NCBI GenBank assembly: GCA_015485665.1
Contig: WFTC01000013.1
Location: 1-64,000 of the forward strand
Direction: 5' to 3'
DNA: 64,000 bases
Source of the DNA: Candidatus Altimarinota bacterium
GTDB lineage: Bacteria > Patescibacteriota > Gracilibacteria > UBA1369 > 2-02-FULL-48-14
Part shown: positions 5,110 through 63,855 of the stretch, piece by piece
How positions within the stretch are numbered: the first letter of the stretch is position 1
Layout: each line of letters opens with the position of its first letter
Position numbers and translations under genes: made by a program
The notes under the pieces: generated by a model
What the model was told of the DNA's origin: nothing
Seen by the model: only the letters and a program-made list of their open reading frames with translations
Database searches by the model: none

Positions 5110-6633
5110 ATGTTTGAAATGCAAGATTACCGTCGGATTCCAAGTTTGATGGCTACTCAACATCCTGATAATGCGAATGCCGCTTTTTGGACAAATCAAG
5201 CAATGATCACTACATCCATGGAGACTGAAGAAATTTATGAATGTTTTTTTACTTTGGGCTGTGATGAATATATGTGGGATTGGGAGGGTAAATTTGCGGA
5301 TGAAGCAATGATTGAAAGATTAATGGCTAGGCATTTGGATACTTTCAAAAAAAATTCTTTGGGGCTGGATAAATTCATAACCTTGCGTATTCCGAATATT
5401 TGGGAAGAACAAAGTTATAAGCTTTCACGGGCTTACATGAGTGTACTTTCAGCTGCGGAGCTTACTCGTGAACTTGCTTTGCACTCTCCTCCGGTTTTTG
5501 AATTTATTTTACCAATGACCAAGAGAGGAGAGCAGCTTATTTATGTGCAAAATACTTTTCGTCAGGTTGCAAATATGCATAGTGAAATTTTTGATGATCA
5601 TGATTTTGGCATGGGTTATATGCATATGATACCACTTATTGAAAGTGTTGAAGATTTCTATGAATCTGCAAAAATCTTGGAAGATTTTATTGCTTTACAT
5701 AAGGAGGTTTTTTCAGTTAAACCTCCTTATTTGCGTCCTTTTATTGCACGTAGCGATCCTGCCCTTAATGCAGGATTTGTTGCCGCTATGATTGGAGTTA
5801 GGATTGCATTGCGAGAATTTTATCGTATTGGGAAACGTCATGTTTTGAATGTTTACCCTATAATTGGTACGGGATCTTTGCCATTCCGTGGTGGAATTAA
5901 TCCGGAAAATATAGTTGCGAGTTTAGAGCATTATAAAGGAGTTAAAACTATTTCCATTCAATCGGCTTTTCGTTATGACTATCCTATGAAGGATGTAAAA
6001 AATGCTTTGAATTATATTCAAAACACTTTGGCTGATTCACAGTCTGTCCAAATTCCCGATAATGAATTTCATGAGTTATATGAGCTTTGTAAGATATTTT
6101 CAGATTATTATCGCAATACAATTGAGCTTGTTGCTCCTCGCATAAATGCAATGGCAAAATTTATTCCTTCTCGTCGTGAGAGAGTGCAGCATATTGGTCT
6201 TTTTGGTTATGGGCGAGAAGTTGGTAAGGTTAATTTGCCAAGAGCCATTAAATTTACTGCGGCTTGTTATTCAATGGGATTTCCTCCTGAATTTGTTGGG
6301 ACGGGTCGTGCTCTTAAAAAGATAAAATCACTTGGCAAGTTGGATCTCTTAAAAAAGCACTTTCCAAGCTTGGGGCATGAGCTTAGGCATGCTGGAAAGT
6401 ATTTAAATAGGAAGAATTTACAAGATTGGGCAAAAAGGGAATCTTGGGCGGAAGATTTGCTGGAAGATATTCTGCTATCAGAAAACATACTTGGCATTGA
6501 TTTTGGTCCAAATAAAAATCATCATTATTTACATGAAATTTTGACTTCAAAAATTAAACTTAAACAAGAAATGGATATTGATTTAAAAGAGGATATTTTA
6601 GAGGCAGCTTTACTTCGTAAAAGTTTAGGATAA
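5110..6633 (+). CDS. ppcA: Archaeal-type phosphoenolpyruvate carboxylase
   Basis: Converts PEP and bicarbonate to oxaloacetate and phosphate. At about 507 aa it has the short length of the archaeal-type family (PEPcase_2) rather than the 870-950 aa of the usual bacterial enzyme. It carries the family's N-terminal MATQHPDNA motif at about residue 12, and later GTGSLPFRGG near 255, IQSAFRYDYP and GLFGYGREVGKVNLPRA. I chose the ATG at 5110; 5119 is also possible. The stop overlaps the start of the aminotransferase by one base. This suggests a coupled pathway from PEP through oxaloacetate to aspartate. Archaeal-type PEPC is known from archaea and scattered bacteria. Confidence 0.93.
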   Translation: MFEMQDYRRIPSLMATQHPDNANAAFWTNQAMITTSMETEEIYECFFTLGCDEYMWDWEGKFADEAMIERLMARHLDTFKKNSLGLDKFITLRIPNIWEEQSYKLSRAYMSVLSAAELTRELALHSPPVFEFILPMTKRGEQLIYVQNTFRQVANMHSEIFDDHDFGMGYMHMIPLIESVEDFYESAKILEDFIALHKEVFSVKPPYLRPFIARSDPALNAGFVAAMIGVRIALREFYRIGKRHVLNVYPIIGTGSLPFRGGINPENIVASLEHYKGVKTISIQSAFRYDYPMKDVKNALNYIQNTLADSQSVQIPDNEFHELYELCKIFSDYYRNTIELVAPRINAMAKFIPSRRERVQHIGLFGYGREVGKVNLPRAIKFTAACYSMGFPPEFVGTGRALKKIKSLGKLDLLKKHFPSLGHELRHAGKYLNRKNLQDWAKRESWAEDLLEDILLSENILGIDFGPNKNHHYLHEILTSKIKLKQEMDIDLKEDILEAALLRKSLG

Positions 6634-7802
6634 TGCTCAATGCATCAGCTCAACAGCTTGTAAGTCCAGCAACCTTTACTATCTCTGCAAGAGCAGCGGA
6701 GCTTAAAGCTGCCGGATATCCTGTGTTAAATTTAAGTATAGGTGAGCCGGATTTTACAGTTCCGGATGCCATTAAAATTGCAGCTCATGCGGCAATTGAT
6801 GAAGATTGCAGTTTTTATACGCCTACAGGCGGTTTGCCTGTTTTAAAAGATGCTTGCATAGCAAAAATGAAAAGGGATTATGCTTTGGACTATTCTTATA
6901 ATGAAATAACTTGCGGTGCGGGAGGGAAGCAAATGTTATTTAATTTTTTTGAAGTTATTTTGGAGAAAGGTGATCAAGTTATACTTACAGATCCGGCTTG
7001 GCTTTCTTATGTGGAGCAAATCAAATGGGCGGGAGGTGTACCTACTTGTGTCCCCACCACTCCGGAAAACAATTTTAATTTGACTGCAGAAGCATTGAAG
7101 GAAGCTTTGAATGCAAAAACAAAAGTCGTGCTTATAAATTCTCCGGGAAATCCAACAGGTGGCGTTATATCGGAGGAAGAACTTGGGAAAATTATGGATG
7201 TTTTGGAAGGTCATCATGCATTAATTCTAAGCGATGACGTTTATGAATTTTTTTCTTATGACGCTCCTCAGGCGCATGTGCTTAGATTGAATCCAAAATG
7301 GAAAGAGCGTGTTGTAACGGTCAATTCTCTTTCCAAAACTTATGCAATGACCGGATGGAGGCTTGGCTTTGCTGCCGGTCCCTCTAAAATCATTGCTGCA
7401 ATGGAGAAAAGGCAAAGTCTTTCCACATCTAACCCATGTTCAATTGTACAAATGGCTGCAGTTTGTGCTCTGAATGGACCGCAAGATAGCGTGCTTGCTA
7501 TGAGGTCAGCTTTCAAGAAGCGTCGTGATTTAGCTGTGGATAAATTGAACAAGTTTGCAAAATTGCCATTTGTCAGACCTCAAGGTGCATTTTATATCTT
7601 AATGGATGTTGGTAGTTTTCTTAAATCCGGAGAATCAGATCTTGACTTTTGCGAGCGCCTTTTGGAGGAGCATTTTGTTGCAATGGTACCCGGAAGTGTG
7701 TTTGGTATGGCAACTCAGGGTTGGATAAGGATGAGCATTGCAAGCAGTGAAGCTGTAATTGATGAAGCTTTGGACCGTCTTTTTAAATTTTTAGATTTCT
7801 GA
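6633..7802 (+). CDS. aspC: Aspartate aminotransferase (class I/II)
   Basis: A PLP-dependent aminotransferase of 389 aa that likely interconverts oxaloacetate/glutamate and aspartate/2-oxoglutarate. Family marks include SIGEPDF at about residue 36, INSPGNPTGG near 168, SDDVYE near 200 and the PLP-lysine motif SLSKTYAMTGWRLGF near 232. A C-terminal Arg that binds the substrate carboxylate is likely within QGWIRMS. The start codon overlaps the PEP carboxylase stop (TAATG), so translation is probably coupled. This neighbour supports aspartate as the substrate over other amino acids. Confidence 0.92.
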   Translation: MLNASAQQLVSPATFTISARAAELKAAGYPVLNLSIGEPDFTVPDAIKIAAHAAIDEDCSFYTPTGGLPVLKDACIAKMKRDYALDYSYNEITCGAGGKQMLFNFFEVILEKGDQVILTDPAWLSYVEQIKWAGGVPTCVPTTPENNFNLTAEALKEALNAKTKVVLINSPGNPTGGVISEEELGKIMDVLEGHHALILSDDVYEFFSYDAPQAHVLRLNPKWKERVVTVNSLSKTYAMTGWRLGFAAGPSKIIAAMEKRQSLSTSNPCSIVQMAAVCALNGPQDSVLAMRSAFKKRRDLAVDKLNKFAKLPFVRPQGAFYILMDVGSFLKSGESDLDFCERLLEEHFVAMVPGSVFGMATQGWIRMSIASSEAVIDEALDRLFKFLDF

Positions 7803-59877: not shown

Positions 59878-60216
59878 TTACGCCAATTTGGAACCATTAA
59901 CGGATTTCTTATCTGGAACTGCTAAAATTACTGCTCCATCTTCTTGAACAAACCCTGTCACCAAAAATTCAGACATAAACGGACCAATTTGTTTTGGTGG
60001 GAAATTAACAACCCCTATTATTTGTTTATTCAATAATTCTTCTTTTGAATATAGAACTGTAATTTTAGCACTAGATTTTTTCACACCAATTTCTCCGCCA
60101 AAATCAGCAGTAATTTTATAAGCAGGAATTCTTGCTTCAGGAAAGTCTTGAACATCTATAATAGTTCCAACTCTTAACTCTACACTTTGGAAATCGTCCC
60201 ATGTAATTTGTTTCAT
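59878..60216 (-). CDS. csaA: CsaA-like tRNA-binding-domain protein
   Basis: A 112-aa protein made of one tRNA-binding OB fold, as in CsaA (a chaperone linked to export in Bacillus) and the C-terminal domain of methionyl-tRNA synthetase. Typical segments are DFQSVELRVGTIIDVQDFPEARIPAYK near residue 9, NKQIIGVVNFPPKQIGPFMSEFLV near 65 and the closing GAVILAVPD. It is a single gene on the minus strand between repeats A and B, that is, in cassette-like position. Confidence 0.92.
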   Translation of the reverse strand: MKQITWDDFQSVELRVGTIIDVQDFPEARIPAYKITADFGGEIGVKKSSAKITVLYSKEELLNKQIIGVVNFPPKQIGPFMSEFLVTGFVQEDGAVILAVPDKKSVNGSKLA

Positions 60217-60253: not shown

Positions 60254-60358
60254 CGTACAACGTCCGAGACTATGAGAAGTTTTGCCGCGGTACAATGTGC
60301 GCGTTAGCGCTTACCGCGGCAAAATTTGGGAGAGCGAATGGAGCGTAGCGGAGTGAGT
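60254..60358 (-). repeat. attC-like repeat B
   Basis: On the plus strand it reads GTACAACGTCC, then GAAGTT and a perfect 13-bp stem (TTTTGCCGCGGTA at 60280-60292 with TACCGCGGCAAAA), then AATTTGGG and a GAGCGAATGGAGCG tail. It shares the AAC, GAAGTT and AATTTGGG boxes with C, D and E. The outer right half is not recognisable. It lies 38 bases before the csaA start. Confidence 0.6.
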
Positions 60359-60445: not shown

Positions 60446-61513
60446 TTACCAATCAGAACGAATACCATATGCTTCTTTATATCTTTTTTTTAAATCAAAA
60501 TACCTTTCTTTATAATTATTCCAGAACATTTCGTAATCTTTTTTTGAAATTAAATTTTTATACATATATTCCATTTGATCTTTTAATTTTTCTTGAGAAT
60601 TATAATAATCCAGCCTCCTTTTATTCTCATAAGTTACCTCGCACAACTCTCTTACTCTATTTTTTTTACTACCTTTGTCTTTGTACATCCCATTATATGG
60701 TGGAGGTACCCTAAACTTATTACTTACAACAACCTTAAGATTATTTTTTAATATAATTTTTCTTGAGAAAATAAGTTCGCCATATTTTGCTAAAAATTTG
60801 TATAAAATATCTCTTATTACATTAAAAAATTCTTCACTTTCGTTACCAATAGAAATATAGCCAATATCATTATGAATGTAATTTCCTTCAAAATTTACAT
60901 CGCCAAAAAGAAAAGCATGAGAAAGGGCATATTTGATAGCTCTTGATAAGTCAATTTCATCAATCCTCCTTTTTTCTTTAGAAAGTGTTCTAAATTCTGT
61001 TTTATTAAATTCTTTAGGGTAAATAAAACGAGCGAGATGATACTTTGCTTTTAACATTTCGTCCGATCTGTCCTCAGATAAAAAAGCAGAAACTATATCT
61101 ATTTCTTTTTTTGTAATTTTTAAAATATCTTGCGATACTACAATTTCAATTAAAGAAAATGTTTTTGTAAAAAAACGATCAAAAAAATTCCTTAAAAAAT
61201 CAATTTTGATTGAGTTATTTGCAAGCATTATCTTTTTTTCCTCTTCGTTGTGAGCATTCCAAAGTAATGCCATATTAATGGCACTCACAATAAAAAGTCT
61301 TGGTCTTTTTTTCATGACTCTTGCAATATCTACTGCTGGTAAAAAATGAGTAATAAATCTTGCATTTAATTTTGAATCTAAATCATAGATATTTTTTCTC
61401 TTGGATGAAATCTTAAACTCCGGTTCATTAAACCCCACAAAAACATCCCTTCCATTTATTAGTTCCGGATTAATGTTTTTTAATTTACTTCTATCTAAAA
61501 CTAATTGTTTCAT
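60446..61513 (-). CDS. Orphan protein in cassette position
   Basis: A 355-aa, Lys/Phe/Asn-rich protein with no signal peptide and no family I recognise. The C-terminal 80 residues are dominated by charged helix (ERYFDLKKRYKEAYG). HNDIGYISIG near residue 213 stands out in the central part. Very A/T-rich codon use sets it apart from nearby core genes. It lies between repeats B and C in the minus-strand array, which fits captured cargo of unknown function. Confidence 0.7.
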   Translation of the reverse strand: MKQLVLDRSKLKNINPELINGRDVFVGFNEPEFKISSKRKNIYDLDSKLNARFITHFLPAVDIARVMKKRPRLFIVSAINMALLWNAHNEEEKKIMLANNSIKIDFLRNFFDRFFTKTFSLIEIVVSQDILKITKKEIDIVSAFLSEDRSDEMLKAKYHLARFIYPKEFNKTEFRTLSKEKRRIDEIDLSRAIKYALSHAFLFGDVNFEGNYIHNDIGYISIGNESEEFFNVIRDILYKFLAKYGELIFSRKIILKNNLKVVVSNKFRVPPPYNGMYKDKGSKKNRVRELCEVTYENKRRLDYYNSQEKLKDQMEYMYKNLISKKDYEMFWNNYKERYFDLKKRYKEAYGIRSDW

Positions 61514-61649: not shown

Positions 61650-61789
61650 CGTATAACGTTTGTGTATATGCGACGTTGCGACCAACGGGAGCAATTTGGG
61701 TAGAGAAGTCTGCAAGACTTCGTAACCTCATATACTGTGTTAGGCGAGGGTGAGCGAGGTACGAGCGAAAGTGCAACGTCCCCTTGAGT
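61650..61789 (-). repeat. attC-like repeat C (complete)
   Basis: Outer boxes are GTATAAC at 61651 and GTTAGGC at about 61738-61744 (GTTRRRY type). Inner arms GTATATG and CATATAC pair over seven bases, then GTTGCG and CGTAAC. The centre has AATTTGGG and an AAGTCTGCAAGACTT palindrome. The tail (to 61789) is shared with repeat A. This is the layout of an attC site: imperfect inverted repeat, conserved ends, variable middle. Confidence 0.65.
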
Positions 61790-61806: not shown

Positions 61807-62964
61807 TTATTCCTTAACGAAATAACTGTCGCTAACTTCTTTCCTCATTTTCCCCTCTGCAAATCTATTGTATCTAAATGATTCTAACAGTTTCGGAGTT
61901 TTGCCCATTATCAATTCTGCCATGAGCTTACCAATCATAGGAAAGAGTTTGAAGCCTGTCCCACTAAAACCAGTAGCACAATAATAATTTGGTACCTCAT
62001 CGATTTCGCTAAGGATAGTGTAATAGTCTGGAGTAACATCTATACAAGAGTTGAAACCGCCAATCGAAGATGATTTTTTCAACTCGGGAATCCTCTCTGA
62101 TATATCTTCTAAATACTCTGTGACAACATCATGAGAGAAATCGAAATCGTGCGTATCTGGGTCAATCTCTCTATTAAGATCAAGAGCTATAGAACTTACA
62201 TCAATGAATGATTCGTGAGGAATTATGTAAAAATGATTAACAAAATCAGCAATGGCTATTAGGTGTCTGTTAGGGCCAAGTGGCGCTCTATAAAAAGCAT
62301 TATCAATGTTGATAGCTTTTACATCAAGCTTGATATCGAAAAATTTATTGATTTTGTTTGAAAACGCAGCGGTGGCATTAAAAACTTTGTCTGCAAGAAA
62401 TGTTTCATTGTTGGTTGAAACAATAAATTGACTGCCTTTTCTTTGAATATTGGTTACTTCTGTGTTTTCAAAGATATCAACACCTGACTTTTTGCATAAT
62501 TCCGCCAGATAATTAGCTATCGTTGCAGGATTGATATATCCTGCCTCTTGATCGAGACAGGCGCAAACATTTTCCGTCTTTAAAAATGGATGAACTTTTT
62601 GCAACTCTTCTCCTTCAAGATATTTCGCCTTAATGCCGAGTGAATTTAATAATTCAACATTTTCCTTTATGTTGTTTGCATTATTAATACTGTCAATAAC
62701 TAAGAGACCTTTTGTTTCATATGTCAGATCTGGAGACTCTCGGCATAATTTCTTGATATACTTTAAACTATCAAATGCCATTTGGGCCATTTCTTTAGAA
62801 TTGTAAAAAGTTCTAACAAAACCACAACATTGCCCAGTTTGACCAGAACCTACATATTTTTTATCCACAAGACAAACATTTTTAACTCAAGACTGTGATA
62901 AGTTGAGTGCTGTTGAAATTCCTGTTGATCCTGCTCCAATAATTAAAATCGAAACTGTCTTCAT
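61807..62964 (-). pseudogene. FAD-dependent amino-acid oxidase with an in-frame TGA at a glycine position
   Basis: A DAO-family FAD oxidoreductase (sarcosine oxidase or D-amino-acid dehydrogenase type), about 385 codons. From the ATG at 62964 the Rossmann FAD motif ILIIGAGSTGISTALNLSQS reads well, then codon 26 is TGA (62887-62889), and the frame continues VKNVCLVDKKYVGSGQTGQ without further breaks to 61807. The family pattern at the TGA is (K/Q)SG-V, so glycine is expected. Either a GGA to TGA mutation has disabled the gene, or it comes from a UGA=Gly lineage, or a short form starts at the GTG at 62868 without the FAD motif. The later part includes GYINPATIANYLAE, TGFSGTGFKLFPMIGKLMAEL and C-terminal family motifs. 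Confidence 0.8.
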
Positions 62965-63003: not shown

Positions 63004-63081
63004 TCGCCTAACGTTTGCGAATAAGCGAAGTTTGACGGGTGTAAAATACGCCGATAGGCATACACCCGTCAAATTTTGGCA
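63004..63081 (-). repeat. attC-like repeat E (left half and central stem)
   Basis: Plus strand: GCCTAAC, a perfect RYYYAAC box, then GTTTGCGAATAAGCGAAG, then a 13-bp perfect stem (TTTGACGGGTGTA with TACACCCGTCAAA), then TTTTGGCAG. The expected right outer box is missing; the tRNA-Thr gene follows instead. It lies about 40 bases before the oxidase start. Confidence 0.65.
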
Positions 63082-63112
63082 GTTTTTTGTATTTTTACAC
63101 TTAAGTGCTTGG

Positions 63113-63185
63113 TGGAGCCGACGAGATTCGAACTCGCATCTACTGGGTGACCAACCAAGTTATTTTACCGTTAAACTACGACCCC
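63113..63185 (-). tRNA. Atypical tRNA-Thr (GGT)
   Basis: A cloverleaf on the minus strand. The acceptor stem is GGGGTCG/CGGCTCC with discriminator A, and CCA is encoded at 63110-63112. The D stem is GTTT/AAAT, the anticodon stem CTTGG/CCCAG with one T-C mismatch, the loop TTGGTCA (anticodon GGT), and the T stem GCGAG/CTCGT around TTCGAAT. The mismatch and one extra base in the arm make it less regular than the other two tRNAs, as in many phage or plasmid tRNAs. Parts of it are repeated in inverted form upstream on its own strand (63244-63280). Confidence 0.7.
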
Positions 63186-63215
63186 ATGGCTCCCCAAGCT
63201 GAGCCATAATACAGA

Positions 63216-63237
63216 AAAACCCTTCCGTTTGGAAGAG
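63216..63237 (-). terminator. Minus-strand terminator-like hairpin before tRNA-Thr
   Basis: Minus strand: CTCTTCC, AAAC, GGAAGGG, then TTTTT. Seven pairs (one G-U) and a T-run, as in an intrinsic terminator. It would end transcription from the small membrane-protein gene before the tRNA. Confidence 0.7.
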
Positions 63238-63243
63238 CTTCTG

Positions 63244-63280
63244 TGGTCACCCAGTTGGGCCGTTATTAACGGTAACTTGG
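63244..63280. repeat. Inverted fragments of the tRNA-Thr D and anticodon arms
   Basis: TGGTCACCCAGT at 63244-63255 is the exact reverse complement of 63142-63153 (tRNA anticodon arm). TAACGGTAACTTGG at 63267-63280 matches the reverse complement of 63155-63173 (D arm to anticodon stem) with five bases missing. Order is swapped relative to the tRNA. On the minus strand these fragments are antisense to the tRNA and precede it. Confidence 0.7.
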
Positions 63281-63374
63281 CTACTTATATGATAGCAGAT
63301 ATGTGTAGAAATACAAGCAAAAATACAAAAAATTGCCGTTTAGCCGCTGTTGTACGATGTAAATTTGCGCCCGT

Positions 63375-63641
63375 TCATTTGCGAAAATTTTTAAGCCACC
63401 ATTTCTTGAATAATGGCACAGTCAAGGTTGAAAGTACAAACGCAACTGAAGGCACAACCGCATTCGTAAATGGTTCGGGTAATTTTGCAATGAGGAAAAA
63501 TATTACGATTACAAAATAAGTAAGAACCAAAATAATCAATTTGCGAGTCCAGCTTGTTTCCCATGCTTTATCAGCTTCGACACGCTTGTTGCGAGCTTTG
63601 ATTTCATCGAGTTCCTTTTTGAGTTTTTCAATATTAGTCAT
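63375..63641 (-). CDS. Small two-helix membrane protein in cassette position
   Basis: An 88-aa protein with an N-terminal charged helix (MTNIEKLKKELDEIKARNKRVEADKAWETSWTRK in pattern: Lys/Glu heptads ending in Trp-Glu-Thr-Ser-Trp), two transmembrane helices (about 33-53 and 60-77) and a basic end (FKKWWLKNFRK). No enzyme motif. Such small membrane proteins are typical cargo of gene-cassette arrays. It is preceded, 44 bases upstream on its own strand, by repeat D. Confidence 0.75.
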   Translation of the reverse strand: MTNIEKLKKELDEIKARNKRVEADKAWETSWTRKLIILVLTYFVIVIFFLIAKLPEPFTNAVVPSVAFVLSTLTVPLFKKWWLKNFRK

Positions 63642-63684: not shown

Positions 63685-63855
63685 GTACAACGTTCATGAA
63701 TATCTGAAGTTGCGCTCATTGTTTTTTAGCTAAACTTAGATTATCAACTTACTTGAGTTATATTACTAAACTTATATTATTACAAGGCGCAATTTGGGTG
63801 AACGAATGGAGCAAAGCGGAATGAGTGAACCAGTTATTCATTGTTATATGATGTA
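63685..63855 (-). repeat. attC-like repeat D (complete, long)
   Basis: Plus-strand left side: GTACAACGTTCATGAATATCTGAAGTTGCGC. Right side: GGCGCAATTTGGG, a GAACGAATGGAGC tail, then CAGTTATTCATTGTTATATG. The ATGAATA/TATTCAT and GTACAAC/GTTATAT arms are complementary with small bulges, as in attC sites. The centre (about 63715-63785) is variable and A/T-rich. It lies between the partial gene and the small membrane-protein gene. Confidence 0.65.

Follow-up and report, generated by a model that had tools for sequence, protein, structure and literature searches.

A gene for a FAD-dependent oxidoreductase of the DAO/sarcosine-oxidase family was interrupted by one in-frame TGA at codon 26. A single recent nonsense substitution probably inactivated this gene, a horizontally acquired cassette in a standard-code host with a small genome. 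The TGA itself would then be ordinary, the mark of a freshly broken cassette gene, and in this group recoding does not necessarily follow from an in-frame TGA where the family has glycine. "The window" denotes the whole stretch of DNA analysed (64,000 nucleotides).

The oxidase gene and its in-frame TGA

The features of the gene were as follows:

61807..62964, (-) strand: gene for a DAO/sarcosine-oxidase-family FAD-dependent oxidoreductase, 385 codons with one in-frame TGA, ending in TAA
62887..62889, (-) strand: in-frame TGA, codon 26, at the glycine that closes Rossmann helix alpha-1
61807..62868, (-) strand: GTG-initiated frame 3' of the TGA, 353 codons, which as read from the sequence would lack the GxGxxG FAD-binding motif

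The frame opened with an ATG (62964-62962, reverse strand), reached the TGA at 62889-62887, continued through 359 sense codons and was closed by TAA TGA TAG, beginning at 61809. The description in the earlier note (ATG at 62964, an intact Rossmann motif, TGA as codon 26 and a clean frame after it) was thus accurate, and a whole-genome search, which placed the frame on contig 13, found exactly one internal stop in it, a TGA. With the TGA read as glycine, the product matched the PF01266 profile over its full length (179.4 bits vs. a curated cut-off of 27.9, E = 1.9e-52), and its best solved relative was a sarcosine oxidase (PDB 1y56_B, 1.2e-31). It shared with the DAO family (the sarcosine oxidase beta, monomeric sarcosine oxidase and glycine oxidase group) the GxGxxG motif, the C-terminal GFSGxGF and an equal length, but was only about 25-28% identical to its members, fell far below every NCBIfam equivalog cut-off among the matches listed and carried the in-frame TGA. 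The GxGxxG motif (IIGAGSTG, codons 10-15) lies 5' of the TGA and is cut off from the remainder of the protein unless the TGA is decoded.

UGA is a stop codon in the host genome

The host genome (859,673 bases in a draft of 23 contigs, 100% completeness) encoded release factor 2 (prfB, 471 bits, over the cut-off), and TGA terminated 137 of its 527 long open reading frames. Aragorn detected 31 tRNAs, with TCC and GCC as the only glycine anticodons; no UCA-anticodon tRNA, tRNA-Gly(UCA) or tRNA-Sec was found among them. A genome-wide scan for coding segments on both sides of one stop yielded 24 cases; most resembled neighbouring genes sharing a frame by chance, and none of the 4 with TGA was convincing as an interrupted gene. 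In this genome, then, UGA is a stop, since release factor 2 is present, TGA ends reading frames, no tRNA reading UGA was found and no second convincing interrupted gene was seen; the earlier note had concluded the same for the resident genes. The release factor and tRNA results bear on the present host and not on a donor. By its size (0.86 Mb), by relatives that are mostly 0.4-2 Mb and by the Roizmanbacteria homologue described below, the host most likely belongs to the Patescibacteria/CPR.

In genetic code 25, the Gracilibacteria and Absconditabacteria decode UGA as glycine. The oxidase resembled such genes in having UGA at a family glycine position, but UGA was not repeatedly used for glycine in its frame (1 UGA and 22 GGN at 23 glycine positions), the present host has release factor 2 and lacks tRNA-Gly(UCA), and the closest relative of the gene belongs to a standard-code genome.

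Relatives and origin of the gene

The only close relative found was an intact gene of 391 residues in Candidatus Roizmanbacteria GW2011_GWC1_37_12 (L064), 55% identical over the whole length, in a genome that carries release factor 2. The nearest homologue, which the earlier note proposed to seek with TGA translated as glycine, lies in a genome with release factor 2 and not in one reading UGA as glycine. Both copies contained GSGQTGQCCGFVRTFYN and had similar C-termini (DSYFVKK/DSYFVKE); the Roizmanbacteria gene differed in standing in a tight operon with no attC seen, in being stop-free and in having Asn (AAT) at codon 26. Its operon comprised three genes (L064:2001-5737), the other two encoding proteins of 319 and 531 aa with no Pfam family at normal thresholds, and is possibly a small biosynthetic cluster.

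A search of 58 close relatives did not find the gene; only the host matched in a phylum-wide sample of 380 genomes, and likewise among 353 genomes of its class. In the order of the Roizmanbacteria relative (83 genomes) there was one further match beyond the known genome, a distant one. Acquisition by horizontal transfer is most likely, because none of the 352 other class genomes had the gene and the relative's order gave that single distant further match. No intact close relative of the window cassette itself was found. A scan of a genome collection with six peptides gave no close relative, and no copy closer than that of Roizmanbacteria in any genome; five of the six peptides contained no glycine and were therefore unaffected by UGA coding. 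Three scans of viral contigs gave no close relative, tblastn against plasmids and phages gave distant matches only (up to about 28% identity, plus one partial match at 33%), and a plasmid search at the DNA level gave no match. Code-25 genomes were also sought across the phylum by in-frame TGAs in rpoB, with none among the matches listed. As prfB was present in 375 of the 380 genomes, the phylum sample seems to contain no code-25 lineages, and these were therefore covered through the collection scans.

Conservation of codon 26 and of the remaining frame

In a 49-row alignment, the codon 26 column held glycine in 45 of 47 distant homologues, with D in one and S in one, and Asn in the Roizmanbacteria homologue (NLAKF-N-ENEI). 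The claim that this is a family glycine position consequently held for the distant homologues, but not for the closest one, where the Asn indicates that the nearest relative does not require glycine here. Another 44 codons of the frame were one substitution away from TGA (5 GGA, 7 AGA, 1 CGA, 11 TCA, 11 TTA, 6 TGT and 3 TGC), so that, even with codon 26 formerly GGA, about 13% of random TGA nonsense mutations would strike a glycine. The coincidence of the TGA with a glycine is weak evidence for recoding because this much is expected by chance.

No further decay was seen across the 385 codons. The window copy kept 25 of 30 near-invariant family residues (vs. 24 of 30 in the intact Roizmanbacteria relative), and 43 of 47 outgroups were nearer to it than to the Roizmanbacteria gene; differences between the two genes were concentrated at third codon positions (132, 87 and 217 at positions 1, 2 and 3 respectively). 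As there is no sign of long decay, either the stop is recent, or the base wrong, or the codon read. The earlier note had held that closest homologues in standard-code genomes, with glycine at the site and other decay in this copy, would speak against its reading: the closest homologue did come from a standard-code genome, but had Asn at the site, and no other decay accompanied the TGA.

A probable recent nonsense mutation and its alternatives

According to the explanation that we favour, a cassette with an intact oxidase gene, related to that of Roizmanbacteria, would have been captured horizontally, and codon 26 would then have become TGA in one step, GGA being the simplest ancestor. The time since that mutation would have been too short for further decay. 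Because the host terminates at TGA with release factor 2, the product would end after 25 residues, presumably with loss of activity; were translation to resume at the next in-frame GTG, the resulting protein would lack the FAD-binding motif. The earlier note had leaned to a simple mutation, and this is supported by a frame that is open but for one TGA and matches its family over the full length, by the release factor, stop usage and tRNAs of the host and by the intact relative in a standard-code genome. Against a nonsense mutation stand the lack of a second lesion, as would also be expected if the codon had a sense reading, the position of the TGA exactly where 45 of 47 distant homologues have glycine, and the fact that the searches gave no intact close relative of this cassette to show its ancestral codon.

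An error in the consensus or assembly, with a sense codon at 62887-62889 and an intact gene in the cell, is considered unlikely. The lack of any other lesion and the retention of conserved residues would fit it, as would the draft state of the genome and an apparent frameshift at an A8 homopolymer elsewhere in the array; substitution errors are, however, rare in a polished consensus, and the TGA lies outside homopolymers and repeats.

Arrival of the cassette through an integron-like array from a bacterium that reads UGA as glycine, leaving it untranslatable in the standard-code host, is very unlikely given the glycine codon count combined with the standard-code relative. The horizontal mobility of the gene and the glycine at this site in the distant homologues both suit such an import. 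The count is tolerable if UGA is a minor glycine codon: the probability of no more than one UGA among 23 glycines is about 0.18 at 13% UGA usage, a rough estimate of the UGA share that assumes about 0.9 glycines per peptide and derives from a study in which 97 of 820 peptides needed UGA as glycine (PMC4032931). At 20% and 30% usage the count becomes improbable (0.04 and 0.003). The earlier note had taken a lone TGA among many glycines as favouring mutation; at 13% usage the count alone is not decisive. Clear code-25 phages are described as dense in in-frame TGA (PMC10746230), and the oxidase has one; CGA is read as Trp in Absconditabacteria (PMC8629427), and the lone CGA codon of the oxidase aligns with Lys and gives no hint of such a reading. 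Two neighbouring cassettes end in TGA, the closest relative has Asn at the site, and the collection scan with mostly glycine-free peptides gave no relative. The import that the earlier note had kept open was thus not supported, the sole close relative found lying in a genome with release factor 2. If true, it would mean that a gene had passed the code barrier in cassette form and was left untranslatable in a relative that uses the standard code.

Still less probable is useful read-through of the TGA, by near-cognate suppression or an unseen suppressor, with the gene remaining functional. Retention of conserved residues over the whole frame is what such a reading predicts, but the host has release factor 2, neither a tRNA-Sec nor a UCA-anticodon tRNA was found in it, and its genome holds no other convincing interrupted gene. 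The base after the TGA is G, which is not known as a favourable context for read-through.

The least probable alternative is that the TGA is harmless and the real product (353 aa) begins downstream at the in-frame GTG at 62868. No evident Shine-Dalgarno sequence precedes this codon, and the beta1-alpha1 Rossmann unit with its GxGxxG, kept by the Roizmanbacteria relative and nearly all homologues, would be missing from the shortened protein; this protein is unlikely to be an active enzyme, as judged from its sequence, because the FAD-binding motif is missing. A reading of UGA as Trp was ruled out by the Gly/Asn at the site, selenocysteine by the lack of a tRNA-Sec and a programmed frameshift by the unchanged frame across the TGA.

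The cassette array

The oxidase gene lay between attC-like sites, in agreement with its description as a cassette in the earlier note, and belonged to a row of same-strand open reading frames with such sites between them. The elements of the array within the window were the following:

63685..63849, (-) strand: attC-like site preceding the 88-aa cassette ORF on its upstream side, ATATAAC ... GTTGTAC, R' core at 63685-63691
63375..63641, (-) strand: 88-aa cassette ORF with hydrophobic stretches, ending in TGA (a standard-code stop)
63110..63185, (-) strand: tRNA-Thr(GGT)-like element with encoded CCA, within the array
63006..63012, (-) strand: attC R' core GTTAGGC (AACGTTAGGC), immediately upstream of the oxidase cassette, where the cassette before it ends
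61651..61745, (-) strand: attC-like site at the end of the oxidase cassette, with cores R'' GCCTAAC ... R' AAC-GTTATAC, R' core at 61651-61657
60446..61513, (-) strand: 355-aa cassette ORF of no known family, downstream neighbour of the oxidase
60255..60261, (-) strand: attC-like R' core, GTTGTAC, recognised by eye and following the 355-aa cassette
59878..60216, (-) strand: tRNA-binding-domain protein (PF01588), likely the next cassette

Two further R' cores were located past the window (contig 13, positions 65221-65227 and 66715-66721). Neighbouring cassettes encoded a kinase-like ATPase, a C39-like peptidase, receiver-domain proteins and proteins of no assigned function. The gene for one receiver-domain protein, also past the window (contig 13, 66939-67639, reverse strand), had its likely ATG one frame off, across the A8 run, for which decay, slippage during transcription and a homopolymer error are the candidate causes; with this apparent frameshift in a second cassette, broken cassette genes are not unique to the oxidase in the array.

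The better sites of the array could be aligned with attC-like sites elsewhere in the genome, on contigs 9 and 18. Such sites were located on contig 9 (L020) at 750, 6282-6349 and 6870-6965 and on contig 18 (L028) at 855-954. A radical-SAM-like ORF and a Xer-like recombinase stood in divergent orientation near the contig 18 site, an arrangement that may be a diverged integron platform. Of 333 genomes of the class, 17 contained a 22-base attC signature, whereas a reversed-pattern control matched none; in several of the 17 an AACGTT core followed 84-125 bases further on. By the signature, such a cassette system seems to be shared within the class of the host. A relaxed genome-wide attC scan gave 16 sites (vs. 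18-33 in shuffles), and R/L arm pairing was obtained in two of three sites folded as single strands (z -1.4, -2.5 and -0.2). The case for an attC array is therefore built on clustering, alignability and the signature search, because the genome-wide scan did not rise above shuffles and the folds were only partly convincing.

No integron integrase (TIGR02249) scored over the cut-off on the available contigs, contig 13 itself being cut at 69,030; two Xer-like recombinases reached 195 and 163 bits (vs. 265). The tyrosine recombinases on contigs 5 and 18 were not accepted as proven integron integrases. The array is like a CALIN, an attC cluster lacking an integron integrase, in its same-orientation ORFs, in the attC-like sites with R''/R' cores between them and in the lack of an integrase over the cut-off; it differs in occurring in an apparently Patescibacteria genome. 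No description of integrons in Patescibacteria was found in the literature searched, from which subscription papers were mostly absent. This integron-like array and its signature are a more useful by-product of the analysis than the stop codon, and a shared attC signature would allow tests of whether CPR lineages exchange cassettes, also across the code-25 boundary.

The tRNA-Thr(GGT)-like element, considered with 63190-63300 upstream of it, was only about half identical to the other tRNA-Thr(GGT) of the genome, and its best Rfam clan match was tmRNA (29 bits, below gathering). Twelve bases of its anticodon region were complementary to sequence lying some 70-90 bases upstream, and the 196-base RNA folded far better than shuffles (z -5.4).
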